NCBI RefSeq assembly: GCF_009828925.2
Contig: NZ_WUTY02000001.1
Coordinates: 3,688,492-3,752,491 of the forward strand
Direction: 5' to 3'
Length of the DNA stretch: 64,000 bases
Source: Methylicorpusculum oleiharenae
GTDB taxonomy: Bacteria; Pseudomonadota; Gammaproteobacteria; Methylococcales; Methylomonadaceae
The position numbers and the translations under genes are program-made. Positions 15,244 through 45,001 of this stretch are shown here, piece after piece; within the stretch, counting starts at the first letter, position 1, and the number at the start of each line of letters is the position of its first letter. Under the pieces are notes generated by a model, which saw only the letters and a list, made by a program, of their open reading frames with translations, did no database searches and was not told where the DNA came from.

Positions 15244-15312
15244 ACCCACTGGGGAAACATCTTCTCCCCAGTATGGGCGTTGGTGTTTCCCTTTTCTTTT
15301 AGGAGAAGCACT
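15244..15312 (+). promoter_or_regulatory. SD-pairing leader of the 46-aa gene
   Basis: Hairpin ACTGGGG/CCCCAGT, then GGTGTTTCCC (15282-15291), able to pair with the Shine-Dalgarno strand GGAGAAGCAC (15302-15311). The hairpin loop side carries GGGGAAACA, an imitation of the Shine-Dalgarno strand. Confidence 0.7.
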
Positions 15313-15453
15313 ATGAGAACGTTCATTGTAATTGCTGTATTTTTGTACGGCATCGGAACCGCATTGTCTGCAGCCAAGGATTCCTTGGATACAGGCAAAT
15401 CCTTGCTTGCGAACCGGCATGCTCAAATCGAAGCCGTTTTGGCTTCTAACTAA
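15313..15453 (+). CDS. Small exported or membrane peptide (46 aa)
   Basis: 46 residues with an N-terminal signal-like segment (MRTFIVIAVFLYGIGTALSA) and a short polar tail. Its start is fixed by AGGAG at 15301 and by a leader shared with about 20 other genes of the arm, which argues it is a real gene despite its length. Not recognised. Directly upstream of ssb. Confidence 0.6.
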   Translation: MRTFIVIAVFLYGIGTALSAAKDSLDTGKSLLANRHAQIEAVLASN

Positions 15454-15528
15454 ACCCTTTGGGAGATCTTTCACTCCCTGCGGGTGTATTGGTCTTCTTT
15501 TTAATTTTTTTCCTTTAGGAGATTCAAC
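15454..15528 (+). promoter_or_regulatory. SD-pairing leader of ssb
   Basis: CCC-TTT-GGGAG / CTCCC hairpin followed by TTGGTCTTC, partly complementary to the AGGAGATTCAAC Shine-Dalgarno strand. Weaker pairing than other members. Confidence 0.6.
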
Positions 15529-15954
15529 ATGTACAACAAATCTACAATCATCGGCCGTTTAGGAACTGATCCAGAAGTTCGTTTTACTCAAGATCAAAAG
15601 GCGATTGCCAATTTGAGAGTGGCTACTACGGAGACCTGGAAAGATCGCCAATCGGGTGAGCGTAAAGAAAAAACGGAATGGCATCGTGTCGTTCTGTTTG
15701 GAAAACTTGCTGAAATTGCTCGTGATCACCTTAAAAAAGGTGCCCTCGTTTTGTTTGAAGGTCCATTACGCACACGTAAATGGCAAGATAAAGATGGTAA
15801 AGATCAGCACACCACTGAGCTTCACGCTGAAGAAATGAAGATGCTTGGTTCTAAATCAGGCTCTAATTCTTCCTCTGGCTCATCTGCATCAGCCTCTCAA
15901 TCAGCCGATTATCCGTCTAACAATTATGACGATTTCGATGATATTGATTTTTGA
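15529..15954 (+). CDS. ssb: Single-stranded DNA-binding protein
   Basis: 141 residues. OB fold in residues 1-105 (MYNKSTIIGRLGTDPEVRFT, WHRVVLFGKLAEIA), then a Ser-rich linker and an acidic tail YDDFDDIDF. The tip resembles the DDDIPF partner-binding end of bacterial SSB but with Asp instead of Pro. Neighbours bet and exonuclease suggest it coats DNA processed by the element's own recombination system. Preceded by an SD-pairing leader. Confidence 0.95.
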   Translation: MYNKSTIIGRLGTDPEVRFTQDQKAIANLRVATTETWKDRQSGERKEKTEWHRVVLFGKLAEIARDHLKKGALVLFEGPLRTRKWQDKDGKDQHTTELHAEEMKMLGSKSGSNSSSGSSASASQSADYPSNNYDDFDDIDF

Positions 15955-16005
15955 TGTTAATAATGGCGTTGCTCCGTCATTTTGAGCTTCGCTAATTCTT
16001 AGCTT

Positions 16006-16077
16006 TTCCCTTTGGGACACCATTTGTCCCTTGGGGCTCTTGGTGTTCCTTTTAAATTTATTTTTTGGAGAAACACC
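16006..16077 (+). promoter_or_regulatory. SD-pairing leader of bet
   Basis: GGGACACCA in the first hairpin and the Shine-Dalgarno strand GGAGAAACACC can each pair with the middle segment TGGTGTTCC. A clear example of two competing partners. Confidence 0.75.
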
Positions 16078-17055
16078 ATGACTGCTAATGCTAAAAATCA
16101 ATCCAATACCCTGGTAAAAAAATTCGCCGATAAATTCAATTTTCCGGACGAAAAAAAATTGATCGACACCTTGAAGGCCACTGCTTTCAAGATCAAAGAT
16201 GGCGTGGTGACTGATGAACAGATGTCTGCTCTTTTGATCGTTGCCGATCAGTACGGTTTAAATCCGTTCACCAAAGAGATATTTGCTTATCCAGATAAGC
16301 AGAATGGCATCGTACCCGTTGTATCTGTTGACGGCTGGTCTCGTATCATCAATCAACATTCCGATATGGATGGGCTTGAATTCGTTTATTCAGACGAAGT
16401 CATCACCGATTTGCCTGACGCAAAACCTTGTTCTTCTTGGATTGAATGTGTGATCTATCGTAAAGGTCGATCCCATCCCGTTCGAGTCAAAGAGTTCTTG
16501 GATGAGGTTTATCGGCCGCCATTTGAAGGTACCAGTAAAAACAACGGTTCTCCCTACAAAGTCAGCGGCCCATGGCAATCTCATACCAAGCGTATGTTGC
16601 GTCATAAGTCCTTGATTCAGTGCTCACGTATTGCATTTGGCTTCGTCGGTATTTACGACCAGGATGAAGCTGAGCGCATCATTGAAGGCCAGGCAGAAGT
16701 CGTCATTGATTCTGTCGTATCTCAAGAGCCCAGTGACAATGCCAAACGCATTCTTCCAAAGCTTGTTAAAAGAGCGACCGAAAATGCTTCATGGCAAGCG
16801 GCGCTTGATTATGCCGGCGAAAACTTTTTCGGCATCGATTTGAATTTCATTACGCAGGAACTCAATAAGGCCAAAGCTGCTGCTGAAGTCGCATTACCTT
16901 CTGCTAAAAATGAAGCCAAATCACCTCAATCAAGTGCAACCGCACCTGTCCATGAGGAATCCGCTCTTAATGAGGCTGCTACCCAAGCTGCACCGGGAGC
17001 AACTGTCAATAACAAGCCGCACAGACAGCATTTGTCTGAAGCTCGAAACTCTTAA
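16078..17055 (+). CDS. bet: Phage-type single-strand annealing protein Bet/RecT
   Basis: Anneals complementary single strands during homologous recombination, normally after 5'-3' resection by a partner exonuclease. 325 residues. The core has ALLIVADQYGLNPFTKEIFA, VSVDGWSRIINQ and GPWQSHTKRMLRHKSLIQC, the RecT/Bet family signature. The C-terminal quarter is Ala/Ser-rich and likely unstructured. The partner exonuclease lies 0.5 kb downstream. ATG 16078 is fixed by GGAGAAACACC. Confidence 0.93.
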   Translation: MTANAKNQSNTLVKKFADKFNFPDEKKLIDTLKATAFKIKDGVVTDEQMSALLIVADQYGLNPFTKEIFAYPDKQNGIVPVVSVDGWSRIINQHSDMDGLEFVYSDEVITDLPDAKPCSSWIECVIYRKGRSHPVRVKEFLDEVYRPPFEGTSKNNGSPYKVSGPWQSHTKRMLRHKSLIQCSRIAFGFVGIYDQDEAERIIEGQAEVVIDSVVSQEPSDNAKRILPKLVKRATENASWQAALDYAGENFFGIDLNFITQELNKAKAAAEVALPSAKNEAKSPQSSATAPVHEESALNEAATQAAPGATVNNKPHRQHLSEARNS

Positions 17056-17078
17056 GGCTAATTTGTCTGCTTTCGTTC

Positions 17079-17147
17079 AACCCTAATGGACATCATTTAT
17101 GCCCATTTTGGGGATTCTGGTGCCTCAACTTTATTTGGAGAGTCATC
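17079..17147 (+). promoter_or_regulatory. SD-pairing leader of the 39-aa gene
   Basis: ATGGACATCA/ATGCCCAT-type hairpin, then GGTGCCTC facing GGAGAGTCATC. Member with weaker complementarity. Confidence 0.5.
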
Positions 17148-17267
17148 ATGATCAGAAACTTAATTTTGGCAGTATTCGGCTATTTCTCTGTCGCAATCCT
17201 TTTGCTGGCAGGCATGCTTGGAAACAAATTTGCACTGAACTCTGGAATGACATGTTCCGAGTCTTGA
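17148..17267 (+). CDS. Single-pass small membrane protein (39 aa)
   Basis: 39 residues with one hydrophobic helix (LILAVFGYFSVAILLLAGML) and two Cys-containing C-terminal residues. Start follows a leader of the arm family with GGAGAG 7 bp upstream. Not recognised. Confidence 0.5.
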   Translation: MIRNLILAVFGYFSVAILLLAGMLGNKFALNSGMTCSES

Positions 17268-17291: not shown

Positions 17292-17362
17292 ACCCACATG
17301 GGCGTCCTTGATGCCCAATGGGGTCTCGTGACGCCCTTTATTTTTCCTATTTGGAGGCCGTT
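17292..17362 (+). promoter_or_regulatory. SD-pairing leader of the 56-aa gene
   Basis: GGGCGTC in the hairpin pairs perfectly with GACGCCC in the middle segment. The same middle segment partly matches the Shine-Dalgarno strand GGAGGCCGTT. Confidence 0.65.
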
Positions 17363-17533
17363 ATGAGTTCTATCGTTTTAAATTCGCTTTTTTATTCTCG
17401 TGATTACAGTGAATACGACAAGCCAACGTTTTTGCGTAAACACGGAAGTGTATTCCGGGAAAGATTCTGGAAACCCATTTACCAGCCACGCAAAAGCCGC
17501 TTTACTCGTATTCATTCCGGGGATCTCCAATGA
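17363..17533 (+). CDS. Small basic protein (56 aa)
   Basis: 56 residues, rich in Arg, Tyr and Phe (FRERFWKPIYQPRKSRFTRI). Not recognised. Its stop overlaps the exonuclease start (ATGA), so it is the leader gene of a coupled pair. Confidence 0.55.
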   Translation: MSSIVLNSLFYSRDYSEYDKPTFLRKHGSVFRERFWKPIYQPRKSRFTRIHSGDLQ

Positions 17534-18604: not shown

Positions 18605-18670
18605 AACCCACCGGGGAACACTGTCCCCGCCTGGGTGCATGTGTTCCTCACCTTTTTTTGGAGGTGCACC
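18605..18670 (+). promoter_or_regulatory. SD-pairing leader of the 118-aa gene
   Basis: GGGGAACAC in the first hairpin can pair with GTGTTCC in the middle. The Shine-Dalgarno strand GGAGGTGCACC faces GGGTGCATGTG and CCTCACC. Confidence 0.6.
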
Positions 18671-19027
18671 ATGCGCAAAACCTACCTCAAAGGCCACGAT
18701 CGCACGTTCAATCTCGATTGGATTGACGATAAATGGCTTTGGTTATATGAACCAGAACCCATCATCGAGGAACTTCCCTCCTGGTCCGAACTAGACATTT
18801 TGCATATTTGCGAATGTCTTTTAGAGGATTCCTTACGGAATTTGTTTGATGGTCGATGCTCGTTGGAAACCGCTGTTGAAATATACAAGTGGATGACCGA
18901 CATCAAAGATCCAAACCCTTTCAGCTTTATCAACTGTTGCAAGTTGACTGGCCTCGATCCTGAACAAGTTCGCGACTCGATTATCTTTCGGCTGCAAAAA
19001 ACGCGTCGATTGAGTCTTTTACATTAA
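18671..19027 (+). CDS. Hypothetical protein (118 aa)
   Basis: 118 residues, opening MRKTYLKGHDRTFNLDWIDD, with several Trp and Cys. Not recognised. Supported by a strong Shine-Dalgarno and the shared leader. Confidence 0.6.
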   Translation: MRKTYLKGHDRTFNLDWIDDKWLWLYEPEPIIEELPSWSELDILHICECLLEDSLRNLFDGRCSLETAVEIYKWMTDIKDPNPFSFINCCKLTGLDPEQVRDSIIFRLQKTRRLSLLH

Positions 19028-19100
19028 CCCACATGGGGGGACATCTTTTCCTCATTTGGAGGCATTGGTGTTTCCTCATTTTTCATTTTGGAGAAACACC
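19026..19100 (+). promoter_or_regulatory. SD-pairing leader of the IS21-split gene
   Basis: Middle segment TTGGTGTTTCC is the reverse complement of the Shine-Dalgarno strand GGAGAAACACC apart from one base. Confidence 0.7.
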
Positions 19101-19485
19101 ATGTCTGATTCAAAAAAATTTGCAGTCACTTACACCATCGACTATCAACACCGTGTTGTTGTCGGTGTTACCGCTTCAGATCAGAGCACTGCTATTCAAA
19201 TTGCCAGCAATGCCTTTGATGAAGGTGTGATTTGGGATGATACGTCCGAGATGCCGTTGCTGTTCGATGACTATGAGGAAGTTGAAGGTGAAACCCTGGA
19301 ATTTACCGCTGAAGAAATTCAGTCGTTTCCAGAGCCTGATTCTTCCGTCAAACAACTAAATGCCAATCAGTTCGCCTTTTATTGCGCACAGGCATTGTTA
19401 ACCGGCGAAATGGATTCTGCCTTTGAGTTTGCGAAAAAGGCTTTGCCTCAGTTAGCTGCATCTCAACCGGAAGAATCTATTTGGA

Positions 19486-22058: not shown

Positions 22059-22127
22059 TACCAATCAAGGGAGATTCATGCTCCCTTGTGGGCTTGCATC
22101 TCTCTTTCAATTCTTTGAGAGAAAATC
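22059..22127 (+). promoter_or_regulatory. SD-pairing leader of the 156-aa gene
   Basis: GGGAGATTCA in the hairpin matches TGCATCTCTC in the middle. The Shine-Dalgarno strand GAGAGAAAATC matches the same middle segment. Confidence 0.65.
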
Positions 22128-22598
22128 ATGCAAAACGAAAGCAACGAAAACATTGAAAGTTCTTACACTTATCGTGCTTGCCAATCTATTTTGGCCGGCG
22201 ATCAAAAATCCGCCTTGGAATACGCTAAAAAAGCGTTTCCTTCGTTGGTTGATGAACCTGAAACCTATTGTTTGACGACCCTTGAGTTGCTTGATCTTGC
22301 CAAAGATCATCATCTCGATATGTCTTTGTCGTTTAACGGATGTTTTCGCACGGGGCTTTATTTAGGCGCCACATCAACGCTTGGTCTTCATCTTCATAGA
22401 GGTACTGTTGGAAGATCTCATCGGATACTGCCGGTGGAGTTTTTGCGCTTTTATCCGAATTCTCTTGGAAAGGTATGGCGCATCGATCAAAAAACGCCTG
22501 CAAAATCTGTTTATCGGACTTTTTGCAATATCCGTCAAACCATTGTTAAACAAATGATCAACCTGTCGTATTTTTCACCGCTGGTTTATTTCAATTAA
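22128..22598 (+). CDS. Hypothetical protein (156 aa), paralogous N terminus
   Basis: 156 residues. Residues about 14-42 (YRACQSILAGDQKSALEYAK) repeat a motif seen in the IS21-split gene upstream, so the two share a small helical domain. The rest is basic and hydrophobic. Not recognised. Confidence 0.55.
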   Translation: MQNESNENIESSYTYRACQSILAGDQKSALEYAKKAFPSLVDEPETYCLTTLELLDLAKDHHLDMSLSFNGCFRTGLYLGATSTLGLHLHRGTVGRSHRILPVEFLRFYPNSLGKVWRIDQKTPAKSVYRTFCNIRQTIVKQMINLSYFSPLVYFN

Positions 22599-22615: not shown

Positions 22616-22685
22616 AACCCACAAGGGGGATGTCCCATTCCCTCTTTGGGGAATTGGCATCTCTCTTCACTTTTGGAGAGATGTT
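22616..22685 (+). promoter_or_regulatory. SD-pairing leader of the 152-aa gene
   Basis: Middle segment GGCATCTCTC pairs with Shine-Dalgarno strand GAGAGATGTT, and also with GGGGGATGTCC in the first hairpin. Confidence 0.75.
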
Positions 22686-23144
22686 ATGAACAAAAAAGTA
22701 TTGGTAACAGTAAGCGGTGGTGTACCAACAGTCTTTGCTGATCACGGTGTCAATGTCGTCGTTCTCGATTACGACGATGCGAAGGTCATGCATCCCGATG
22801 ACATGGTTCCCATTCATCTTGATTTTTTACCTTTGATGGAGTTTGCAAAGGCTATTGATGACTGGCCTCTGACGGATGACGGCAGATTCAATGATGCCAA
22901 AAATCTTTCGGATATCACCTGGAAGCTTTTATCGAAAGAACGCCCGCCGATCGCTGTACGTGTCGAATGCGTCATGAAGCCTGAGTTCGCTAATGGTTTG
23001 CTCGGTAGAAAATTCCTGTGGCTTCACAATGATGGGTATTGGAAAGGCGAAAGCATTTCCAATCAATCCCAGATATTTCCGATAGGAAGTGTATTGGCTT
23101 GGGCGCCCATTCGTGACTTTTCAGGAGAGCATTGTGTCGGTTAA
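22686..23144 (+). CDS. Hypothetical protein (152 aa)
   Basis: 152 residues. The N terminus (VLVTVSGGVPTVFADHGVNV, then VVLDYDD) is a beta-rich motif common to small plasmid proteins. A related motif opens the zinc-ribbon protein at 40417. Function unknown. It ends by overlapping the next start. Confidence 0.6.
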   Translation: MNKKVLVTVSGGVPTVFADHGVNVVVLDYDDAKVMHPDDMVPIHLDFLPLMEFAKAIDDWPLTDDGRFNDAKNLSDITWKLLSKERPPIAVRVECVMKPEFANGLLGRKFLWLHNDGYWKGESISNQSQIFPIGSVLAWAPIRDFSGEHCVG

Positions 23145-23662: not shown

Positions 23663-23730
23663 AACCCTCGCGGGCTCATTTCCGCCAGGGAATGACTCCG
23701 CGAATTTTTAATTTTTCAAGGAGTCATTTA
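23663..23730 (+). promoter_or_regulatory. SD-pairing leader cut off from its gene
   Basis: AATGACTCC pairs perfectly with the Shine-Dalgarno strand GGAGTCATT, a completely different sequence from other members but the same pairing. A tnpB element follows directly, so the leader no longer has its gene. The original start was probably the ATG at the element's far end near 26.39 kb. Confidence 0.75.
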
Positions 23731-25021
23731 TCCAAATCGCGGCGAAAAACCCCTCCCTTCAGGCAGGGGATGTAAGCCGCCCGGGGAAGCCAGTGAAGGG
23801 ATTGCATATCTCGCAAGCCGTGCTCGAATAAAGGCATGAGCACCAAAAATACTACCATACGCCACCAAAGCTACCGATTCCGCCTGGAACCCAAGGCCAA
23901 ACACCTGGATCATTTGAACCGATCCCTGGGTGTCAATCGCTGGGTCTGGAACAAACTGCTGGCCGCTAACCTGCACCGATTACGAAACGGCATGTCTTTG
24001 CTGGTACGAGGAAATGGCCTGGTGGATTCAATTCTGGAAGCAAACCGAAGACTACGCCTTTCTGCGTGAAGCACCCGCCCAATCCTTGCAACAAACCGCC
24101 AAGGCCCTCGAACGCGCCTTCAAGGACGCCTTCGACAAAACCAAACCGAACAAACGGTTGCCGAAACCGAAAAAGCTCGGCAAAAACGAAGCCGGTATCA
24201 AATACCCGCAGGGTTTTAAGCTGGATGAAAACAACCGTGTCATCAGGCTGCCCAAGCTCGGATGGGTGAAATACCGCAACAGTCGCCCGATCAAAGGCGT
24301 GATCAAAAACGTCACCGTATCCCGGCATGGCTGCCACTGCTGGCTGTCGATCCAGACCGAACGCGCAATCGAAAAACCGGTTCACCCGGCGTCCGGTGAA
24401 ATCGGCCTCGATCTGGGCGTCAAGCGCTTATACACGCTCTCGAACGGCGATTACCACGAACCTTTCAACATCGAACCGTTGGCAAAGCAGTTGATCCACA
24501 CACAGCGCACGCTGTCGCGCCGGGTCAAGTTCTCTGCTAACTGGCACAAGCAGAAAAAACGCATCAACCGCCTGAATACGCGAATTGCCCATGCCCGTTT
24601 GGATACCCTTCACAAAGCCACGACACGGATCAGCCAAAACCACGCCATGATCTATGTGGAAGACTTGAAGGTGAATCATATGACGCGCAGCGCCAAAGGG
24701 ACACTGAACGATCCCGGTCGTCAAGTCCGGCAAAATCCGGACTCAACAAGGCGATATTGAGCCAGGGCTGGGGGCTTTTTTGTGACCAGTTGACCTACAA
24801 GCAGCAATGGCAAGGCGGCGATGTCATACGGGTAGCGCCGCATCACACCAGCCGGACGTGCCCATGTTGCCGCCATGTCGCGAAGGATAACCGGCAAACC
24901 CAGGCCGAATTCCGTTGCGTCGAATGCGGCTACGAAAACCATGCCGATCTGGTAGGTGAAGTGGCTACACTAAACCGGACACACAATCTAAAATAACCTA
25001 AAAATAGAGAGTGTGTCGAAA

Positions 25022-27916: not shown

Positions 27917-27994
27917 ACCCACCGGGGAAACAACTTCTCCCGGTATGGGCGTTGGTGTTTCCCCTTTTTTCTTTTTGAAATTCGGAGAAACATC
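27917..27994 (+). promoter_or_regulatory. SD-pairing leader of the MoxR gene
   Basis: Hairpin ACCGGG/CCCGGT; compared with the first leader (ACTGGGG/CCCCAGT) both sides changed together. Middle GGTGTTTCC faces Shine-Dalgarno GGAGAAACATC. Confidence 0.75.
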
Positions 27995-28972
27995 ATGACT
28001 CAAATTACTAAAAAATTCCCAATCGGTTCCACTTTCAACATTGCTGCACCTGCTGCAATGATGGTTGAAGGTTTTGAGGATGAAACTCATCCATCCATTC
28101 CAACCCGGAAAGAGTATGTGTTTCGCAATGAACATCTTCGTGATGTGATTGCGTTCATTTCCAATCCACTTGGCGATGCGCTTTATTTGACTGGTCCTAC
28201 GGGTTCCGGCAAAACCTCGCTGATCTGCCAAGTTGCAGCCCGTTTAAATTGGCCAGTTCACCAAGTCACCTGTCATGGTCGCCTTGAGCTGAACGATTTG
28301 ATCGGTCAATTCATGCTGGTTAACGGCTCTATGTCTTTTGTTCACGGGCCTTTGGCTCAGGCCGTCCGAGACGGACATCTTTTGATCTTGAATGAGATCG
28401 ATTTGATGGACCCCTCAGAGCTCGCTGGTTTGAACGATATTATCGAAGGGCAACCTTTGGTAATTCCTCAAAACGGTGGCGAAGTCATCAAGCCTCACCC
28501 TAAATTCCGTTTGATTGCTACCGGCAACTCTGCTGGTCAAGGTGATCAATCCGGTCTTTATCAAGGCGTCATGCAACAAAACCTGGCCTTTCTTGACAGG
28601 TTTCGCCTGATGGAAGTCAGTTACTCTGAAGCATCTATCGAGCAATCCATTCTCAAGTCTGTTTTAACGGGAATGGGTGTCCCTTTTGATTCTGTCATGG
28701 AAAACTTGACGGAAAAGATGATTCAAGTGGCCAATGAAATTCGTCGACTCTTTGTCGGTGGTACTGACGGTGCCGGCGAGTTGAGCGTTACCATGTCTAC
28801 TCGGACACTGGTTCGCTGGACAAATCTGATGATTGCCTATAAACGTGCTCCCAATGCATTGGCCTATTCGTTGGATCGTGCGCTGACATTACGTGCCGAG
28901 CCCGCTCAACGCGAAGCCATTCACAGGATCGCCAAAGACGTTTTCGGTGATGCCTGGGGAGATGATGCGTAA
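27995..28972 (+). CDS. MoxR/CobS-type AAA+ ATPase
   Basis: 325 residues. Walker A GPTGSGKT (67-74), Walker B LLILNEIDL, sensor-like ATGNSAG, and an arginine-finger region around LDRFRLMEVSY. The CobS-like group works with a CobT-like VWA partner; the partner here is at 31927. CobS/CobT proper insert cobalt in B12 synthesis, but no B12 genes are present, so a chaperone or remodelling role with the recombination genes is inferred. SXT/R391-type elements carry a similar gene beside bet and exo. The stop overlaps the next start (TAATG). Confidence 0.88.
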   Translation: MTQITKKFPIGSTFNIAAPAAMMVEGFEDETHPSIPTRKEYVFRNEHLRDVIAFISNPLGDALYLTGPTGSGKTSLICQVAARLNWPVHQVTCHGRLELNDLIGQFMLVNGSMSFVHGPLAQAVRDGHLLILNEIDLMDPSELAGLNDIIEGQPLVIPQNGGEVIKPHPKFRLIATGNSAGQGDQSGLYQGVMQQNLAFLDRFRLMEVSYSEASIEQSILKSVLTGMGVPFDSVMENLTEKMIQVANEIRRLFVGGTDGAGELSVTMSTRTLVRWTNLMIAYKRAPNALAYSLDRALTLRAEPAQREAIHRIAKDVFGDAWGDDA

Positions 28973-29790: not shown

Positions 29791-31086
29791 ATGTCACACA
29801 ATGCAGAAATGATTTTGGACCAAATCGATGTTGTCAAACTCGACATCAACCTTTGGACAAGTTCAAAAAAATTAAGACCAGAGGATCTCGTTTTAGCCGA
29901 TGGTTCCAAACTTCCACCGGAAGATTTGGCTTATCTCGGCACCAAAAAGACCATTGATCCCGACAAGTTGAAAGAATTCAACCGCATCAAAAAAGAAGCG
30001 GAAAGAATTTGTCTTCAATCCGGAACTCGATTTATCGGTGGTTTTGCTAATCCGCGGGCTGAAATTCCTCGTATTACGCAAGAGCTGGATGAGTTATCGA
30101 AGACCTTTTACGAGGCTCGCGATCAACTGCTGGCCACTTATCACGAGGACACTGAAGAATGGATCGCTCGCCATGCTGAATTTGGTGATGCCATTCGTCG
30201 TGCGATTGAGCCAGTTGAATCCGTAGCATCCAAGTTGCGATTCGATTACGTTGTGTTTCGCGTAACCGTACCCCAGGCAGATACTTTATTGCCTGATGCA
30301 ACACCAGCTGCCGTCGATTCCCTGCATCGTCGTACCAATTCCATGAGTGATCAGCTTTTTCATGAAATCGCTCAGGAAGCCAGTCAACTTATCGATCGAT
30401 CGTTCGTGGGTAAGGATACTGTCACCGGCCGATCTCTCAATGCTTTTCGGAGAATGCGGGATAAGCTAGACAGCCTGGGTTTTCTTGATCATCGGTGCAT
30501 GCCAGTTGTTGATAAGATCGATGCTGTTTTGGACGCCTTGCCCAAACAAGGTCCCTATAATGGTATTGCATTCAACAGCCTTTTCACGCTTGGTTTGCTG
30601 TTGTCAGATCCTGACAAAATCAAACGTCATGGCAGTGGTTTGTTGCAAATGGAATCAATCTCGGTTTCTGATGCTATAGCCGCAGTTGAATCCGATGAAG
30701 AAGATGTCGATGTAGAAATGCTCGACTCATCACCTGCTGTACCCGTTGCGGTTGCGGAAGAACCTGTTGAAGCACCTGTTGCTGATACTTCTGCTGTCAA
30801 TACCGATGACGACAATGATCTTCCCGGTTTTGACGACTTCCTGTCCAACTACAATCCTGCAAAAGATGTTTTTGATACCGCACCTTTAGTCGATGTTTCA
30901 ATTAACCTCGATAATTTTGCTCAAGATGTTTTTGAACCGGCTCTCGAAGCAACAAGCTTTATGGCTTCTGTCAAAGAAACTGTACAAGTTGCCGCGGAAA
31001 CCGCTTCAACATCAATTCCTGTTCAATCTAAAGATGAGTCTGAAACTCCAGCTACTGAAGAAGTAGTCGAAGATTTCTGGTTCTAA
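29791..31086 (+). CDS. DUF3150 family protein
   Basis: 431 residues. The first 270 (starting MSHNAEMILDQIDVVKLDIN) fit DUF3150, a family usually found beside CobS-like and CobT-like genes on conjugative elements. The rest is an acidic, low-complexity linker (DSSPAVPVAVAEEPVEAP) ending VVEDFWF, the third [DE]DF[WY]F tail in this arm. Role unknown. Confidence 0.75.
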   Translation: MSHNAEMILDQIDVVKLDINLWTSSKKLRPEDLVLADGSKLPPEDLAYLGTKKTIDPDKLKEFNRIKKEAERICLQSGTRFIGGFANPRAEIPRITQELDELSKTFYEARDQLLATYHEDTEEWIARHAEFGDAIRRAIEPVESVASKLRFDYVVFRVTVPQADTLLPDATPAAVDSLHRRTNSMSDQLFHEIAQEASQLIDRSFVGKDTVTGRSLNAFRRMRDKLDSLGFLDHRCMPVVDKIDAVLDALPKQGPYNGIAFNSLFTLGLLLSDPDKIKRHGSGLLQMESISVSDAIAAVESDEEDVDVEMLDSSPAVPVAVAEEPVEAPVADTSAVNTDDDNDLPGFDDFLSNYNPAKDVFDTAPLVDVSINLDNFAQDVFEPALEATSFMASVKETVQVAAETASTSIPVQSKDESETPATEEVVEDFWF

Positions 31087-31093: not shown

Positions 31094-31167
31094 ACCCGGC
31101 GGGTGCAACTTCATCCCGCGTGGGATGATTTGCCTCCGCCTCCATTTTTTTCTTTTTTGGAGGCTTT
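31094..31167 (+). promoter_or_regulatory. SD-pairing leader of the 221-aa gene
   Basis: GCGGG/CCCGC hairpin, then GCCTCC facing Shine-Dalgarno GGAGGC. Confidence 0.65.
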
Positions 31168-31833
31168 ATGGCTAACAACTATTCGCAGGCAACTGTTTCA
31201 CCTTGTTTACCGCTGGATCTCGTCACTAATTTCGAGCAAATCCTACTTAATGAGTATGGATTTCAATACGAGTTATACGGATCACTGGATGAACGTAAGA
31301 TTTATTTTTATGTTCCGGATAGCGAAAGAGATTCAGTCGAAGACTTCGAACTTGAATTGATCGAGGAATATGCGAGCCAAGGTGATGAAATTGCCAAGGC
31401 CTTGCAACAGTACATCAACGAAAACGGTGATGACGAAATCGACCAATTTATTTCGTTTCAATACAGCTGGGTTTCAATATTCCAGCACATCCTCAATAAA
31501 CCAGGATGTCAAATTGACGAAATCGTCGTTGAAGGCTGTTATTTTTGCGACAGGCTCCGGCAAGGTGAATTTGGTGGCTGGATTACCAGAATCACAAAGT
31601 TCACTGTCCAGTATGGAGGAACTCAGGCAATGCTTATTCAGATGCAACAGGAGCCGGCCTTCTTGGAAGCCCTTGACATTGTTTATCAGTTGGCATCAGC
31701 CAATTGCGCTGACAATGAACATGATCCTGATGATCCACTTCTGGATGAACGTCTAGCTGAGGAATGTCGCAAACAACGGGCAGCGCTCAACTTGATCCAT
31801 GATTACTGCGCTAATCACGAATTGAATCGATAA
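31168..31833 (+). CDS. Hypothetical protein (221 aa)
   Basis: 221 residues, strongly acidic and helical (DSERDSVEDFELELIEEYAS), with a possible zinc site (GCYFCDR). Not recognised. Lies between the DUF3150 and CobT-like genes, so it may belong to that complex. Confidence 0.6.
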   Translation: MANNYSQATVSPCLPLDLVTNFEQILLNEYGFQYELYGSLDERKIYFYVPDSERDSVEDFELELIEEYASQGDEIAKALQQYINENGDDEIDQFISFQYSWVSIFQHILNKPGCQIDEIVVEGCYFCDRLRQGEFGGWITRITKFTVQYGGTQAMLIQMQQEPAFLEALDIVYQLASANCADNEHDPDDPLLDERLAEECRKQRAALNLIHDYCANHELNR

Positions 31834-31860: not shown

Positions 31861-31926
31861 AACCCTTGAGGTGAACCTTTGCCTCTCGGGCTCATGGTTT
31901 GCCTCTTTTTTTTGGAGATACAAATC
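31861..31926 (+). promoter_or_regulatory. SD-pairing leader of the CobT-like gene
   Basis: GAGGTGAACC pairs with GGTTTGCCTC, which can also pair with the Shine-Dalgarno strand GGAGATACAAATC. Confidence 0.7.
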
Positions 31927-33741
31927 ATGAAAAACCAAACCTTGAATAACGCTTTTCCAATTGTTGCTGCAGCATTGGGCAATAAGTTTGGCGTTAAAGT
32001 CTCTGTAGGTGGAGAAGACGCCTATACAACAGGTGATCGTATTCATCTGCCGGCATTAGACACTGATGATTCCAATATCAAGGATGTTGCCTGGGGTTAC
32101 CTGGCACATGAAGCTGCTCACGTTCGGTTCACTGATTTTGGTGAATTTCGCAATGCTGCTACCAGTCCTCTACGGAAGCATATTGTCAATATCCTGGAAG
32201 ATATCCGCATCGAAAAAGCGATGCAGGAACCCTATCCAGGTACAAAACGTACAACTGAGAAAGTGACTGAATACTTGGTTCAAACGGATGCTTATGGTTT
32301 TGTCACAAAAGACCAAGAACCGCATCCTGCCAGCGTTCTTTCACAATTTCTGTTATTTCGTTTGAGACACGATGTTCTTGGCCAAAAAGCCTTGTCGTCG
32401 CTTGCTGATTCTGCTGAGTCTCTGTTGGAAGATACTTTTCCTGCAGGTGCCATTACTCGCTTATTTGGCCTCTTATCCGATGTCCCTTCGTTGCGTGAAA
32501 CCCGTGATTGCGTTCGGCTTGCCGATCAAATCTTGCGGATGATCCAAGAAGAGCAGGAAAAGGCTGAAGAACAAGCCCGGCAACAAGCTCAGCAACAACA
32601 ATCTTCAAGCAGCAACGCCGGTGGACAATCAAATTCGTCTGATGATGCCGACGCAGATGATCAAAGTGATGACACGTCGTCTGGTGATACCGATGATTCT
32701 CAACCGAATCAATCGAGTCAACCCGATGATGCTATTCCACAAACCGATACTTCTGATGCTGATGACGATAACGCCGATCAACAATCTGGACAGGGTGCAA
32801 CATCATCCCGTTCCGGTGCTGATGATCAATCTCAGGATGCCGATCAATTGGCGCAAATCTTGTCATCGGCGCTCTCTGCCGGTCAAGATGACTTACCTGA
32901 TGATTTGTTTGAAGCGGCCCAGAAGCTGTTAGGCAACCAGCCAAGAAATAGTTACGATTCTGAAATCCATTTGCCCCAGGCGATGGAACCGAACCGTAAT
33001 CCATCGACTGGTAATGCAATATTGAATCGAGCACTTTCGGAATCCGGCAAAATCCGGGCTTCCTTACAAGGCCTTATTCAATCCAGTCGTTATGAACGTC
33101 CTGTTAATAAACGATCTGGTAATCGTATTGATGGTCGTAAATTGGTTCGTTTGTCTCAAGGGGATTCTCGCGTTTTCGAACGCAGAACTCACAAGCAGGC
33201 GCCAAATACGGCTTTACACTTGTTGGTCGATGCATCGGGTTCAATGAACAACCGTATCAGCCCGTCTTCCATGATTACCTGGGCTCACATTGCCATGGAT
33301 TCGGCGGTTGCTTTGGCTTTGGCGCTTGAAGGTATTTCAGGTGTCAATCCGGCAATTACTCGATTCCCTCATGGCGATACTGATAACGTCAATCCATTGT
33401 TGAAACACGGCCAAAAGGTTCGCCCTCATGCGTCCGCGTTTTCTGCAATTACCAATGGAGGCACGCCGCTTCATACCGCACTGTGGTATTCCGCTGCGAG
33501 TGTTATAGCGACCAGGGAAGAACGCAAGGTCATCATGGTTCTTACCGATGGTGAGCCTGACGACTATGATGCTGCTAAATCAGTGATCCGCCGCTGCGAA
33601 GCAACTGGCATTGAATTGGTTGGTGTTGGAATCTGTATCGATACCAGTCATTTGTTTGACAATTCGATCTGCATCAGCAATGTGTCCGACCTGCGTTCTG
33701 AGCTTTTCAGAATCAGTAAGGATTTGTTGTTGGCCGCATAA
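31927..33741 (+). CDS. CobT-like VWA-domain protein with HExxH motif
   Basis: 604 residues. An N-terminal domain has a metal-site motif HEAAH (61-65). A middle Asp/Ser/Gln-rich linker (about 220-310) is low complexity. A C-terminal VWA domain has the MIDAS sequence DASGSMNN (about 434-441) and LTDGEPDDYD. CobT-type proteins act with MoxR/CobS ATPases. The HEAAH site suggests a zincin-like domain, but the activity is unproven. The natural partner is the ATPase at 27995. Confidence 0.85.
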   Translation: MKNQTLNNAFPIVAAALGNKFGVKVSVGGEDAYTTGDRIHLPALDTDDSNIKDVAWGYLAHEAAHVRFTDFGEFRNAATSPLRKHIVNILEDIRIEKAMQEPYPGTKRTTEKVTEYLVQTDAYGFVTKDQEPHPASVLSQFLLFRLRHDVLGQKALSSLADSAESLLEDTFPAGAITRLFGLLSDVPSLRETRDCVRLADQILRMIQEEQEKAEEQARQQAQQQQSSSSNAGGQSNSSDDADADDQSDDTSSGDTDDSQPNQSSQPDDAIPQTDTSDADDDNADQQSGQGATSSRSGADDQSQDADQLAQILSSALSAGQDDLPDDLFEAAQKLLGNQPRNSYDSEIHLPQAMEPNRNPSTGNAILNRALSESGKIRASLQGLIQSSRYERPVNKRSGNRIDGRKLVRLSQGDSRVFERRTHKQAPNTALHLLVDASGSMNNRISPSSMITWAHIAMDSAVALALALEGISGVNPAITRFPHGDTDNVNPLLKHGQKVRPHASAFSAITNGGTPLHTALWYSAASVIATREERKVIMVLTDGEPDDYDAAKSVIRRCEATGIELVGVGICIDTSHLFDNSICISNVSDLRSELFRISKDLLLAA

Positions 33742-33782: not shown

Positions 33783-33848
33783 ACCCAGACAGGGAGCCTT
33801 TCCCGCTGGGAATGCTCTTTGTCTGATTTTCTTCTGGAGATTTTTGCA
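33783..33848 (+). promoter_or_regulatory. SD-pairing leader of the 40-aa gene
   Basis: CAGGGAG/TTTCCCGCTG hairpin, then CTCTTTGTCTG near Shine-Dalgarno GGAGATTTTTGC. Pairing is weak in this member. Confidence 0.5.
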
Positions 33849-33971
33849 ATGAGCAAAAAAAACGATTTGACCCAACAATTGGTTTCTGTGTTGCAGGAAA
33901 TGGTTAATGACTATGGCTATAACCGCTGCGACGAAAAGCGATTGGAAACGATTGGTGACGCTAAAAACTGA
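33849..33971 (+). CDS. Small hypothetical protein (40 aa)
   Basis: 40 residues, amphipathic helix likely (NDLTQQLVSVLQEMVNDYGY). Supported by Shine-Dalgarno and leader. Not recognised. Confidence 0.45.
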   Translation: MSKKNDLTQQLVSVLQEMVNDYGYNRCDEKRLETIGDAKN

Positions 33972-40343: not shown

Positions 40344-40416
40344 ACCCTTCCGGGAAACACTTATCCCGGCATGGGCTTTGTGTTTCCCGTTTAATTACTT
40401 TTATTGGAGAAACACC
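40344..40416 (+). promoter_or_regulatory. SD-pairing leader of the zinc-ribbon gene
   Basis: TGTGTTTCCC matches both GGGAAACAC in the first hairpin and the Shine-Dalgarno strand GGAGAAACACC. Confidence 0.75.
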
Positions 40417-40956
40417 ATGACTACCAGTCAAAAAACCATCAATTTGGTCATTCACGTTGAAGGCGGTTTAGTTCAAGCCGTTTACACCGATTCACCTCTC
40501 AATATTTGTGTTGCTATACAGGACTTCGATATTGAGGGCGCTGATTTAGACGAATTGGCAACTTTGTCCAATGGAACCGAGTTTCTCGGACACATTGAGC
40601 AAGCCATTACCAATAATCAGCGTGTTGAGGAAGTGTTCGCCGCTTTTGATCAGCCCGTTGAATGCGACCATAAAATCGATGTTCAACAGGAAAATTACCT
40701 TAGAACGCACGGTAAATTCTGTCCAAACTGCGGCTCTATGAACATTGAGTCTCATGGAGCAATGGAAGCGGATGGCGATCTTGCATGGTCATTCGTGACC
40801 TGCATGGATTGTTCATCTACCTGGCAAGATAATTACCGTCTCGAATCATTTTCTGATCACGATGATACAGCACTAAAGGTCATCAATTCTGATTCTGAGC
40901 GATGTTATTGGTCAAATGAGGCTGGTTTAGAGGCTGAAGTTTTGCCCACGAACTAA
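40417..40956 (+). CDS. Zinc-ribbon hypothetical protein (179 aa)
   Basis: 179 residues. The N terminus (NLVIHVEGGLVQAVYTD, then VAIQDFD) belongs to the same small family as the protein at 22686. A four-Cys zinc ribbon follows (FCPNCGSMN and TCMDCSST). Function unknown. Last gene before the third 200-bp repeat. Confidence 0.65.
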   Translation: MTTSQKTINLVIHVEGGLVQAVYTDSPLNICVAIQDFDIEGADLDELATLSNGTEFLGHIEQAITNNQRVEEVFAAFDQPVECDHKIDVQQENYLRTHGKFCPNCGSMNIESHGAMEADGDLAWSFVTCMDCSSTWQDNYRLESFSDHDDTALKVINSDSERCYWSNEAGLEAEVLPTN

Positions 40957-40970: not shown

Positions 40971-41174
40971 GAAAGACGCGCTAAAAAAGGCGTCTTTCGA
41001 TTTAAAAAACCTTGACGGTATCTGGCATACTGCCGGTACCGTCTTTCCAGAATGCTTGGCATGAGTGTTGTGGAAAGACGGATTTTTGTAGTTCTCTAAG
41101 AGAACTCAAAAGCAAGTGCCAGTTCAGCACTCTAAATAAGGCAACCTGTTAAGCGCTTCGGCGTGATTTTTTAA
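40971..41174 (+). repeat. Hairpin-rich 200-bp repeat, copy 3 (operon head)
   Basis: Same hairpin order as the other copies. Here AGTTCTC/GAGAACT is a perfect stem, whereas copy 1 has GAGGACT. The last stem is followed by GATTTTTT. Ends at the leader of the 97-aa gene. Confidence 0.8.
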
Positions 41175-41240
41175 CCTCTGGGGAAATCTTTATTCCCTGG
41201 CTGGGCAATGATGATTTCCCTCTTTTTTAGGGAGATTGTC
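41173..41240 (+). promoter_or_regulatory. SD-pairing leader of the 97-aa gene
   Basis: GATGATTTCCC matches GGGGAAATC in the first hairpin and GGGAGATTGTC around the start. Confidence 0.75.
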
Positions 41241-41534
41241 ATGTGTAAATTCTATTTTCAAATTTCGCCCGCCAATAGCGGCGACAATATCGATTTCGGA
41301 CTTGTTTTTAACGAGGATGAATCCAGCTCCTTGGTCAAGGTATTTTCTGTTTCGGATGATTCCGAATTCATCAATACCACCGACCATAACACTTGCCGCA
41401 TTCTGCTCACATCGCTGAAAGAATACGCGCAAACCCGCAGATTTTTTAAGTTTGAAAGCTTTCTTCAGGATTGCCTCTTCAGCCTGAAAGACTGCAAACC
41501 GTCAGGATTAAGTTACTCGCTTAAACTGATCTAA
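41241..41534 (+). CDS. Hypothetical protein (97 aa)
   Basis: 97 residues, opening MCKFYFQISPANSGDNIDFG, beta-rich N-terminal half. Not recognised. First gene of the third block. Confidence 0.55.
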   Translation: MCKFYFQISPANSGDNIDFGLVFNEDESSSLVKVFSVSDDSEFINTTDHNTCRILLTSLKEYAQTRRFFKFESFLQDCLFSLKDCKPSGLSYSLKLI

Positions 41535-41557: not shown

Positions 41558-41630
41558 AACCCAACTGGGAACAAAATTTCCCATTGGGATTGTTTTGTTT
41601 CCGGTGATTTTTCTATATTGGAGACAAAAC
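41558..41630 (+). promoter_or_regulatory. SD-pairing leader of the GHKL ATPase
   Basis: GTTTTGTTTCC faces GGAGACAAAAC (10 of 11 pairs) and also GGGAACAAAAT in the first hairpin. Sequence differs from other members at the same positions in all three segments. Confidence 0.8.
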
Positions 41631-43239
41631 ATGAAACAAGTATCAATGAAAGTTAATCAATCCAACCTGGTCAAAAGCTTGAAGTTCAGCTTTACCAATA
41701 AGACCACGGTTTTGGGTGAGCTCATGCAAAATGCCCGTCGTGCAGGCGCAACTTCGGTAAATTTCGAATTTGCTCCCGAAACCAAGATACTTCGCGTGAC
41801 TGATGATGGCTGTGGTATCGATTCTATCGAGACCCTGCTTACCGTCGCCGAATCCGGTTGGGACGCCGATGTGGTTGCTCAAGAACATCCTTTTGGCATT
41901 GGTTTTTTATCTGCATTATTTGCCTGCCGTCATATCACTGTCGTCAGTAAAAGCGGAAGAATTTCCGTTAATACCGATGATGTTCTGTCATTCAAGCCGG
42001 TCAATATTACTCCTGTCCCAAAATGGGACAATGTAACAATCATTACTATGGTTGCTGTTGATCTTGAATTGGGTCGTATCGAGCACGAACTTAAACGTCT
42101 TGCCACTGCATTTCCAATTCCCGTTCTATTCAATGGCGCTGAACTCAATCGTCCTCATGCGATGGATTCAGGTCTTGAATTTGATAATACAGAAATTGGT
42201 TATGTTTGCCTGGCTGGTTTTTAACAAGCCAGATCAGCATAACAAGAACTACTTGATGTATTTGCAGGGCTTGCCAATCTACAAGTCTTCAAGCTATGGA
42301 TCATTTGGTTCGCCTGGCTATCATATTATTCATCTTGACTCTTCGAAATTTTTTGGTCGATTGCCAGACCGCGACGAATTGGTTGATAAGCAAGATGTGC
42401 TAAAGCAAGTTGAAGGTGTTTTAAGATCCCAGATCGAAAAGCGCCTTATTGAGATGAAATCAAGTTTGTCTGCTTTGGATTTTGTCGCTTATTACGACAT
42501 CATCAATGACTGGAATTTGCTTTATCTTCTCAATGATGTGCCAGTTATCCCCTGGCATGTTTTGTGCGAGATAACCGGTTATCCAAATTGCAATGATGAA
42601 AACTTCGGTGATTATGAGTCTCGTCTCGAAAAGCCAGTGCACCGCGATGAAATTCTAGCCGGTCGCCAAGTGGTTTCTTTCGATGAGTACATGCAAGATG
42701 AAGGCTCTGCGTTGTCGATGTATGTATATATGAACGAGTTCTACATCTACTATCACTCCAGTTCGAACAAACTCGATTCAGAACACTGGCTGCATGCACA
42801 TATTCGCAACCTTAATGGTGAAAAAGTTTCCATTGAACTGATCAATGAATCTCATACGGCTTATTTTTCTGGTCAATGGGCATGTCTTGATTCGGTTTTT
42901 TGTGATGCTTATCGAATTCATGTTGGCAATGATTTTGTTGAGATTGATGGCAATTCCATGTTCGATGGAGAGAAAGCAATTGTCCTTAAAAGAGATGGTT
43001 CTGGCTCTGTTCTCACTCAGTCGAATTCATTCAGAGATGAATACGATTTTCAACAGTCAGCTTATGAAGCGGATGAGTTTGATTTCTCGCAATTTGTGGT
43101 TGCGAACACATCATCTGATATCACTGAAGCACTGAAACGATTGCTGCCGAACTTTAGCGGCTGTCCTTCTCTGTTTGGGAAATCATTTGTCATTACATTG
43201 GATGAAAATGGTCATGTTGCTACCGTAACACCATCCTGA
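41631..43239 (+). pseudogene. GHKL (Hsp90/HATPase-type) ATPase, frameshifted
   Basis: The first frame (41631-42224) has the ATP-binding boxes: ELMQNARRAGAT (30-41), DDGCGI (58-63) and HPFGIGFLSA (86-95). At about 42219-42223 a run of five T ends it with TAA. Skipping one T continues the protein as NKPDQHNKNYLMYLQGLPIY and on to a stop at 43239. Total about 535 residues. One extra T, a sequencing error, or a translational frameshift could explain it. The C-terminal half is not recognised. Confidence 0.8.
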
Positions 43240-43254: not shown

Positions 43255-43323
43255 AACCCGGCCGGGAAACATTTCCCGTTCGCGGATTGTGTTTCCTGGT
43301 TTCTTTCTTAGAGGAAACACACT
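43255..43323 (+). promoter_or_regulatory. SD-pairing leader of the 43324 gene
   Basis: TGTGTTTCC pairs perfectly with GGAAACACA over the Shine-Dalgarno; GGGAAACA/TTTCCC forms the upstream hairpin. Confidence 0.8.
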
Positions 43324-43690
43324 ATGACTATTGGACAACCTTACCAAAACCCTAACGGCGATACCCAATGTGATGCCAAAGGTATTTTGGGCGATTACCA
43401 TCCGCAAAACGGCTGACCACACCTGGATTGCTATTCAGTTGTTCGGCGCAGTTGGAAGCATTGCTGCAACGGCTTTAACTCCTGAATCAGCATTTAAAGA
43501 AGCCGAAAGTCATTACGGTGCCAAGAACAAAAAGCGTATGAAAATGACGCTTGAAATTGAAGGCGTCGAAACCTTCGATCTGGAATTGGCTTTGAATGAA
43601 GCACTGAAACTTGTCAGCGAAGGCTATACATCCGGTTTCGATAAAAATGAAACTGGCTCATATAACTTTTCGATTGACGCTATTAATTAA
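43324..43690 (+). CDS. Hypothetical protein, probably frameshifted
   Basis: The leader and AGAGGAAAC point to ATG 43324, but that frame (MTIGQPYQNPNGDTQ) stops after 30 residues at 43416. The neighbouring frame, open from 43331 to 43690, gives a better protein (ITIRKTADHTWIAIQLFGAV, then LTPESAFKEAESHYGAKNKK). Either a one-base change joins them, or a 30-aa peptide overlaps a second gene starting at TTG 43331 or ATG 43373. Not recognised. Confidence 0.5.
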
Positions 43691-43698
43691 ATTTACTT

Positions 43699-43778
43699 AA
43701 CCCCTGCGGGAAATTTCATTTTCCCCACGGGATTACTGATTTTTCCCGCTTTTTTGCTTTTTAAGCAGGAGAAAAATC
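43699..43778 (+). promoter_or_regulatory. SD-pairing leader of the 281-aa gene
   Basis: TGATTTTTCC matches GGAGAAAAATCA at the start; GCGGGAAA matches TTTCCCGC. Confidence 0.8.
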
Positions 43779-44624
43779 ATGTCTAATTTCTTTTTTCAAA
43801 AGAAAGTTGACCGTCGCAGCCGTTCCGCCATGGTTGATTTTTTAAAATCTCATTACCGCTATAACACAATGAGTTCTTGGAATCGTTCTTCGTCATACGC
43901 CCATTGCATCAAGATCCATCGTCTCGGTTTAACCTCTGAGCAATCAGATAAAGCCTATGAATCGCTGGATACTGATTTTTGGGATGAAATCAGATGGCCA
44001 ATTGACGAGTTCACTACTTCTCAAGGTGGTTGTTACACGATTGGCACGAACGGTCGTTCAGGTGGATATTTGGTCTTGTATCAATCTCGCCGTGAATTAA
44101 CTGGTCATCTCAGCTACTGTCCTTCTTGTGGTCAACGGAGCTTCAAAAAAGTGCCACCGACTTTCGAAGATGCTAACGAGAATGTCATTGCTCAGGAAAT
44201 ACTCAGAAGTCAGAAATCTTGGCTTCCTGATGTTTATTTGAGTCAGCCTGCAATCGAGGCTTTACCGCTTTCAATAGATGAGAAATTGTCATTGATTGTT
44301 CGCATAAGATCTCAATTGGTTAACCTTAATTGCACAGTTACTGATGCCTGTGGTGTTTGCAGTAAACCACGTCGAAACTTCGATGTGTCGCCTTCGCAAT
44401 TATCCGTTTATCCGGGCAAAAGCATCGATCAGCATGAGGATTTTTATGCCGAAGACTGGTCAATGGATGCTTTACGCGATCGTGTTGATCTCGTCTGCGC
44501 TTTTGATGCCGCTTGCGACGATATTCGTAGCAACTTCATCGCGCTGCTTGATGATTTTGACGTTGTCGAGGAAACGATACAACGTCCGGTCAAAGTAAAA
44601 AAGCTTATTGCTCGTGCAGCTTAG
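43779..44624 (+). CDS. Hypothetical protein (281 aa) with zinc-knuckle pairs
   Basis: 281 residues. Cys pairs CPSCG and CGVC are about 70 residues apart and may form one zinc site. Rest unknown. Followed after 9 bp by the next gene, whose GGAGG lies at the stop codon, so the two are probably coupled. Confidence 0.6.
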   Translation: MSNFFFQKKVDRRSRSAMVDFLKSHYRYNTMSSWNRSSSYAHCIKIHRLGLTSEQSDKAYESLDTDFWDEIRWPIDEFTTSQGGCYTIGTNGRSGGYLVLYQSRRELTGHLSYCPSCGQRSFKKVPPTFEDANENVIAQEILRSQKSWLPDVYLSQPAIEALPLSIDEKLSLIVRIRSQLVNLNCTVTDACGVCSKPRRNFDVSPSQLSVYPGKSIDQHEDFYAEDWSMDALRDRVDLVCAFDAACDDIRSNFIALLDDFDVVEETIQRPVKVKKLIARAA

Positions 44625-44633
44625 GAGGTAACT

Positions 44634-44891
44634 ATGTGTTTTGAAGAAGTTGATGAAATTTCTGATGAAGACCTGGAAGCCGCTTCTGAGTTTTACGACC
44701 GACTTTTGAGTGGCAATCATCCTTGTCAACAAGCCAGACGGATAGCTTTAGAGCAGTTTAATATCTCTCTTCCAGATAATGTGCTGAATCATATTATAGG
44801 GATGTATGACTGTACGCTTTCTTCGATGGATGATTGTGTTCGAGCCTGCTTAACGAAAGCTGGTTTGTTTCATTCCACCAATGTCGAGTAG
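44634..44891 (+). CDS. Hypothetical protein (85 aa)
   Basis: 85 residues, acidic N terminus (MCFEEVDEISDEDLEAASEF), helical. Strong GGAGG 8 bp upstream of the ATG. Not recognised. Confidence 0.5.
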   Translation: MCFEEVDEISDEDLEAASEFYDRLLSGNHPCQQARRIALEQFNISLPDNVLNHIIGMYDCTLSSMDDCVRACLTKAGLFHSTNVE

Positions 44892-44905
44892 ATAGTTTTT
44901 AAAAT

Positions 44906-45001
44906 AACCCATCTGGGAGAATTCATCTCCCTTTGGGCGCATGGTTTCTCTCGGGTGGTTTTTCCATCCCTGCCTGCCGGGACATTACTAGGAGAAAAAC
45001 C
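44906..45001 (+). promoter_or_regulatory. SD-pairing leader of the 75-aa gene
   Basis: TGGTTTTTCC pairs with GGAGAAAAACCA. Longer than the other leaders because of an inserted CCTGCC-rich stretch. Confidence 0.75.

Follow-up and report, generated by a model that had tools for sequence, protein, structure and literature searches.

The rightward arm of a 64,000-nucleotide (nt) stretch of the Methylicorpusculum oleiharenae genome (contig NZ_WUTY02000001.1, here C1, positions 3688492-3752491 of a 5.8 Mb genome; hereafter the window) carries 21 leaders on the + strand, each of which is probably a two-state RNA governing translation of the gene that follows. The evidence in the sequences for a two-state switch acting on the Shine-Dalgarno sequence (SD) is strong, and our best reading is that the leaders form a family of translational switches, so far uncatalogued, that belongs to large conjugative elements. 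Read 5' to 3', a leader comprises strand 1 (AACCC), strand 2 (GGG, together with its loop termed A), strand 3 (CCC), strand 4 (GGG), strand 5 (B), a spacer (T-rich in the window leaders; median 15 nt over 74 leaders), strand 6 (C, the SD strand) and ATG. AACCC, GGG, CCC, GGG, the SD and the ATG are the conserved parts, and no conserved ligand-binding core was found among them. This anatomy, together with the triple covariation of A, B and C, the distribution of the leaders and the position of the start codon, is documented by comparing sequences. In the proposed OFF state, strand 1 would pair with strand 4, strand 2 with strand 3 (the GC hairpin) and B with C, so that ribosomes could not load. 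In the ON state, A would capture B, strand 3 would pair with strand 4, strand 1 would be released and C would be free; the direction of switching and the 3:4 pairing are presumed here. The full-length RNA would rest in OFF, and RNA made before C is transcribed would prefer the ON pairing. Both pairings of B would be maintained by selection, with A, B and C private to each gene and strand 1 common to all.

Coupling between strands was evaluated with a permutation-based swap test, in which each leader was given another leader's partner strand and the fit was compared. Among the 21 window leaders, coupling was detected for A:B (z -10.2), B:C (z -7.1) and strands 2:3 (z -4.5), with controls at -0.6 (A:C) and -0.7 (strand 3:B). 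On these values B has a partner in both A and C, and is coupled more strongly to A. An initial annotation, made from the letters of the window alone, had proposed that B is complementary to C and changes together with it, and that B finds a second partner in the first hairpin; both proposals held, and covariation among the leaders was present in swap tests with n = 21 to 92. A further 33 leaders, from the Methylobacter plasmid NZ_CP091425 and a second contig of the window's genome, gave similar values (A:B z -10.8, B:C z -7.1, controls +1.2 and -1.3), and the A:B pairing is absent from the covariance model, R1, that found them.

A pooled set was built from two alignments (A3, 63 matches; A5, the best 150 of 234 matches) by dropping minus-strand rows, rows gapped at anchor columns and short rows, which left 163, and then removing those at least 80% alike. 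The resulting 92 leaders (66 of Methylococcales type and 26 others), which overlap the window set and the set of 33, gave z -21.8 for A:B and -15.7 for B:C. Within A, the loop was coupled to the upstream part of B (z -12.1) and the core to the 3' end of B (z -5.8); the controls were A:C -1.8 (near chance), strand 3:B +1.2 and reversed B -0.8. The same two couplings were observed in class-level loci (A:B z -7.9, B:C z -7.3; best 20 of 27 matches) and in the plasmids pRA1 and pCAR1.2 (A:B z -8.9, B:C z -7.5; best 23 of 40 matches). When 69 non-overlapping pairs of leaders were compared at a lenient identity threshold of 62%, own A:B was better than crossed in 58, with 6 ties and 5 reversals, and own B:C in 48, with 10 ties and 11 reversals. 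At positions of B paired in both states and forming G-U with C, A differed and was Watson-Crick in 65 of 93, and where the partner in A was G-U, C was Watson-Crick in 103 of 131; A is thus more than a copy of C. For the OFF helices, changes on both sides were found at 14 of 16 pairs over 126 distinct rows, with 93.9% of cells paired, and the covariation score was 0.407 vs. 0.163 after shuffling and at most 0.069 after sliding, in an alignment fitted to the OFF structure itself.

One orthologous place where A, B and C apparently change together is the leader of the DUF3150 gene. The three segments read A GGGGCAGTC, B GTGCTGCC and C GGAGGTAGTT in the window; A GGGGCATAT, B GATATGCC and C GGAGATATTG in Methylobacter sp. 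KS41; A GGGGGAATC, B GATTCCCCC and C GGAGAATC in Pseudomonas; and A GGGGGAACTT, B AAGTTCCCCC and C GGAGAACTT in Stutzerimonas.

Minimum-energy folds of most window leaders contained the OFF set of helices (1:4, 2:3 and 5:6); 2:5 with 3:4 inside was a frequent fold of the first 45 nt taken by themselves. For the pooled leaders, the best full-length fold held B:C in 83 of 92, A:B in eight and neither in one, and the best fold of a prefix ending before C held A:B in 76 of 92. Together with the report on the integrative element SXT discussed below, these folds suggest that the leaders would be OFF by default in cells. For 74 of the 92 leaders both states could be constructed; there ON exceeded OFF by a median of 5.3 kcal/mol, while in 8 of the 74 it was no higher than OFF. 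P1 was worth 4.8 kcal/mol, and masking strand 1 reduced the median gap between ON and OFF to 0.5 kcal/mol; ON was then no higher than OFF in 42 of 92 leaders, vs. 10 of 92 unmasked. Since P1 carries 4.8 kcal/mol and masking strand 1 nearly equalises the states, this shared strand is predicted to tip the balance between them.

Several results weigh against a two-state switch. With the SD forced open, A:B formed in just 53 of 92 leaders; 18 of 92 failed to yield both states at five pairs; and masking of strand 1 left the SD mostly open in just 16 of 92 (3 before masking). Direct-path barriers between the states were high (median 17.5 to 18.3 kcal/mol, in a calculation that disallowed pseudoknotted paths), so spontaneous switching may be slow. 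The swap controls were uneven in the class-level loci (A:C -2.1, 3:B -3.5, reversed B +0.9; best 20 of 27 matches) and in pRA1 and pCAR1.2 (3:B -2.4, reversed B -3.6, A:C -0.2; best 23 of 40 matches), in the latter with a B window that included strand 4. The B:C statistics are biased upward because B:C, unlike A:B, was part of the model that chose most of the leaders. In the pooled alignment a fixed-register column test of A:B scored little above shifted registers, a failure that we attribute to a register varying between leaders and after which the A:B test was made register-free by swaps. The 3:4 helix has no covariation support because strands 3 and 4 hardly vary, and leaders such as that at 33783 look degenerate.

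The distribution of the leaders was explored with R1, seeded with 12 window leaders and containing the OFF pairs only; its calibration was short and its E-values are rough. The model recovered 19 of the 21 window leaders (the 12 seeds and seven of the nine others), missing those at 23663 and 33783. No match was obtained outside 15243-45004 on either strand of the window at E<=1, in agreement with the earlier proposal that the element is missing from the left arm and the giant genes. The 33 sense leaders mentioned above were taken at E<=0.005. In counts over genomes drawn from each taxonomic group, with the window's own genome counted in, matches occurred in 51 of 201 family genomes (E<=1e-3) and, at E<=1e-4, in 21 of 101 order, 20 of 369 class and 12 of 398 phylum genomes, three of the last 12 lying outside the class. 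Of 27 loci around DUF3150 genes in named genomes, all but that of Mailhella (26 of 27) had matches at E<=0.1; among them are loci of Methylobacter, Pseudomonas, Stutzerimonas, Azomonas, Alcanivorax, Vibrio, Shewanella, Providencia, Edwardsiella, Paraglaciecola and Desulfovibrio sp. A2. No relatives of DUF3150 were confirmed in viral contigs. Sense matches at E<=0.05 numbered 16 in 41 kb of pRA1 (IncA), six in pCAR1.2, six in pKLC102, four in a Stutzerimonas megaplasmid, one in Erwinia pEB102 and 16 in the Methylobacter plasmid; of these 49 matches, spread over six annotated plasmid regions, 41 stop precisely at a start codon given in the annotation. In pRA1, the annotated gene start at 28206 falls inside the leader 28188-28247, and R1 points to an in-frame ATG at 28245. 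Genes behind class-level leaders include those for ArdC, DUF3577, RecT, a CbbQ-like ATPase, DUF932 and a helicase. PLSDB types the relaxase of four records (pRA1, pCAR1.2, pKLC102 and pEB102) as MOBH, and lists the Methylobacter and Stutzerimonas plasmids as non-mobilizable with an empty relaxase field. Judging from these matches, the family is found on large conjugative plasmids and integrated elements, before genes for DNA metabolism, anti-restriction and other functions; a search with a covariance model, as had been suggested at the outset, thus found the leader in pRA1, pCAR1.2, pKLC102, the Methylobacter plasmid and others.

None of the leaders in the window, pRA1 or pCAR1.2 had a match at the gathering threshold in Rfam 15. 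Scans by E-value over part of the window, loci L010-L020 and two short stretches returned only sub-threshold HgcC, snoRNA, sot0042 and miRNA matches, and the one sub-threshold match on a leader, in locus L013, was to mir-BART15 (15.3 bits vs. a curated 70). An Rfam family as the explanation was accordingly rejected for the scanned loci (the window and L010-L022, where no leader match exceeded the curated score; L005-L009 and L023-L057 lay outside the scans). The suggestion that the element might correspond to STAXI did not hold. As far as described in the sections seen of PMC2864571, STAXI (RF01728) consists of two or three tandem pseudoknots, often with UUCG loops. The leaders resemble it in lying near SSB and other DNA-handling genes, but they are single units with other loops and without tandem pseudoknots, and no STAXI match was found at the gathering threshold in the window, at E<=5 over 15000-46000 or in L010-L022, the presence of RF01728 in the library used being unconfirmed.

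A closer relative is reported in passages of a 2015 review (PMC4542580): ahead of bet, SXT carries a strong attenuator of translation, said to hinder expression of highly transcribed genes, to lower translation in vivo and to be present in IncA/C plasmids. In pRA1 the end of the leader 17641-17718 coincides with the annotated start of bet, which places it immediately before that gene in an element of the SXT and IncA/C type, and the same position before bet is occupied in the related loci L040, L043 and L048, the last on a Providencia rettgeri chromosome. The attenuator is said to have been described in 2013. It shares with the leaders the same gene and the same kind of element, and differs from them in being described, in the passages available, as a single site, whereas leaders number up to about 20 per element, occur in many element families and carry an additional anti-sequestor strand. 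From its position, we infer that the SXT attenuator is one member of the leader family. A search for SXT with bet DNA in E. coli genomes gave, among the best 40 of 3224 records, two plasmid-sized records with the whole query; the remaining 38 were chromosomes with 9-13% of it.

Translational riboswitch platforms employ a sequestor of the SD and an anti-sequestor that are mutually exclusive. Sequence covariation in the leaders points to the same pair of competing strands; they differ from riboswitches in that no conserved unpaired aptamer core was seen and the switching strands vary between genes. Type I toxin mRNAs form metastable structures that compete around the SD as the transcript grows, as the leaders may; there, however, a single toxin gene is involved, whereas the leaders present a shared architecture with private sequences over a whole gene block. 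The Frpo single-strand promoters treated in the accessible parts of a paper on the leading region are a different device (PMC11541004). No description of the general leader family was recognised in a literature search that reached few subscription papers in full. On the whole, the proposal of an SD-masking translational on/off switch on the DNA-metabolism arm gains support from swap tests, folding and the published attenuator at one position.

If, as one alternative has it, the B:C hairpin alone mattered, translation would be lowered by a fixed amount and A would be a passive 5' hairpin. This agrees with the 83 of 92 full-length RNAs that rest in B:C, and the SXT site is described merely as an attenuator in the passages seen of PMC4542580, but the A:B swap z exceeded that of B:C in every set and A and C each complement B independently, which makes a static attenuator improbable. 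A second variant keeps two states and supposes that ON is an H-type pseudoknot, with the first hairpin closed and just its loop pairing with B. The loop of A does pair specifically with B on its own and would also be a natural toehold; against this, the stem core and linker of A match the 3' end of B, a match that a closed hairpin does not need (at 31861, for example, GAGG with CCTC), and we consider the pseudoknot unlikely. Regulation by a leader peptide, as in ribosome-stalling attenuators of the erm/cat type, or plain translational coupling to the preceding gene, would fit the finding that, for 19 of the 21 leaders, the closest stop codon ahead that ends a frame of at least 40 codons is 0-29 nt away. 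Nevertheless, an ATG preceded by an SD-like motif occurs in merely one of the 21, on which ground a leader peptide was rejected, and for coupling the distance to the upstream stop spans -2 to 37 nt, and these frames probably include some that are not genes; this pair of explanations is very improbable.

With the two-state switch as the preferred reading, two candidate triggers can be proposed. Factor binding to the shared AACCC is one possible trigger because masking of strand 1 brings the states to nearly equal energy, and transcription speed across the spacer would be another. In the former case, a protein or RNA on the shared single-stranded AACCC would open P1 and turn an element's leaders on together. 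The A at -1 before CCC is conserved in 97, 89, 87 and 100% of Methylococcales, IncA/C-like, pCAR1-like and other leaders, respectively (116, 54, 15 and 11 distinct upstream stretches), and G is infrequent from -6 to -1 (<=7% in all four groups, apart from 11% at -4 in the IncA/C-like one). Yet a T-run farther upstream is strong in the Methylococcales group only, and no factor was found: ProQ is absent from the window's genome and its sole CsrA (C1:4785740) lies outside the window and contig C2, in a search that did not extend to Hfq and cold-shock proteins. A trans-acting trigger is a tentative proposal. CsrA and ProQ were rejected as the factor on the same grounds, CsrA lying nonetheless 17 kb from two weak leader matches (C1:4764903-4768425, E about 0.13). 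Those matches, which leave room for an element near CsrA, and a further cluster of four on the same chromosome (C1:1983279-1993017, E 1e-4 to 0.21) are possibly other elements or remnants. In pCAR1.2, a csrA of its own (29856-30029) sits beside a KorB-domain gene near the leader-bearing block. For a timing trigger, A:B would form in the nascent RNA before C exists, the young transcript would be translated and later locked OFF, and slow or paused transcription would give more ON. The 76 of 92 prefix folds with A:B, the 83 of 92 full-length folds with B:C and the 15-nt median spacer are in line with it, but the calculated direct barrier from the first hairpin to A:B is about 18 kcal/mol, and we regard timing as doubtful. 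Extended to the whole element, a possible if speculative regulon would consist of one two-state RNA before up to about 20 genes, all opened at once when one factor or condition acts on the AACCC strand (or by polymerase speed), with private strands whose differences would prevent cross-pairing and recombination between leaders in elements having their own SSB, Bet and exonuclease. A small RNA complementary to AACCC was also considered; GGGTTAA, the complement of the AACCC strand, occurs three times in the window.

All 21 leaders lie where the initial annotation had placed them. Its statement that 21 genes carry one stands for 20 of them, the leader at 23663 being cut off from its start codon by an insertion, and the common AACCC start holds as (A/T)ACC in 20 of 21, followed in order by the GC hairpin, the B segment, a mostly T-rich spacer and the SD strand. 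Five of the open reading frames (ORFs) behind leaders are tiny (30 to 56 codons). The first putative operon opens with the leader 15244..15315 of the 46-codon ORF 15313 (A GGGGAAACAT, B GGTGTTTCCC, C GGAGAAGCAC), followed by those of ssb (15454..15531, gene 15529-15954), which begins directly behind the upstream stop codon, and of recT/bet (16006..16080, gene 16078-17055), where strand 1 is TTCCC. Next come the leaders of the 39-codon ORF 17148 (17079..17150) and the 56-codon ORF 17363 (17292..17365), whose end is overlapped by the YqaJ exonuclease ORF 17530. The exonuclease has no leader of its own, and the same is true of the primase ORF 45226, which overlaps the end of ORF 45002; for both genes this had been noted before. 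Leaders 18605..18673, 19026..19103, 22059..22130 and 22616..22688 precede ORFs 18671 (118 amino acids, aa), 19101 (147 aa), 22128 (156 aa) and 22686 (152 aa), the AACCC of the second being overlapped by the upstream stop codon. Between them, at 19569-21852, lies an IstAB pair of the IS21 type of insertion sequence (IS). At 23663..23734 is the leader without a start codon, missed by R1 at E<=1, with IS-like sequence right behind its SD. The insertion-like sequence extends over 23735-26390 and is presumably of IS200/IS605 type, judging from its ends; the sub-threshold HgcC match (26284-26406) lies at its far end.

The second putative operon begins with the leader 27917..27997 of the CbbQ/CobS-like AAA ATPase gene (27995), behind which are those of the DUF3150 gene (29720..29793, gene 29791-31086), compared above with its orthologues, of ORF 31168 (31094..31170; 221 aa) and of the CobT/VWA gene (31861..31929, gene 31927-33741), where the stem core is GAGG:CCTC and not GGG:CCC and B ends in CCTC. 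The leader of the 40-codon ORF 33849 (33783..33851) is weak, with strong A:B and weak B:C, and that of ORF 40417 (179 aa) lies at 40344..40419. ORF 41241 (97 aa; leader 41173..41243) is the first of the third putative operon; behind it lie the leaders of the HATPase gene 41631 (41558..41633; A GGGAACAAAA, B GTTTTGTTTCC, C GGAGACAAAAC), of the 30-codon ORF 43324 (43255..43326), the ORF after which has a sub-threshold WGR match, of ORF 43779 (43699..43781; 281 aa) and of ORF 45002 (44906..45004; 75 aa).

In terms of gene content, the rightward arm codes for SSB, RecT/Bet, YqaJ exonuclease, a CbbQ/CobS-like ATPase, DUF3150, CobT/VWA, HATPase and Toprim primase, and the left arm for RdgC, H-NS, DnaN, an SNF2 helicase and a YfbR-like protein. 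The window DUF3150 protein is 90% identical to one from a Methylomicrobium metagenome-assembled genome. The region 46849-61878 holds a pair of giant ORFs, one of 2633 and one of 2367 aa, in which bacterial Ig, cadherin and GH85_C-like matches were obtained; they probably encode adhesins, have no leader ahead of them (R1, E<=1), and a gene for an Ig-like domain protein is likewise present in pRA1. Three modules of about 270 bp, 88-91% identical (15030-15315, 27709-27975 and 40962-41231), head the three putative operons, and full or partial copies were found in loci L005-L007 and L023-L029. Each consists of a promoter-like part and then a conserved block of about 90 nt, which contains small hairpins and CACTCTAAATAA and sits just 5' of leaders 15244, 27917 and 41173. 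CACTCTAAATAA resembles boxA, and the modules are possibly antitermination or operator sites.

Taken as a family of switches, the leaders would give large conjugative elements, including the IncA/C group known for multidrug resistance, a recurring RNA layer, and the attenuator reported upstream of bet would gain a family. They predict which genes may be held back after transcription and can help to correct start codons, as in pRA1 (28206 to 28245). They also raise the question of what would turn the block of leaders on upon entry into a new cell or upon induction.

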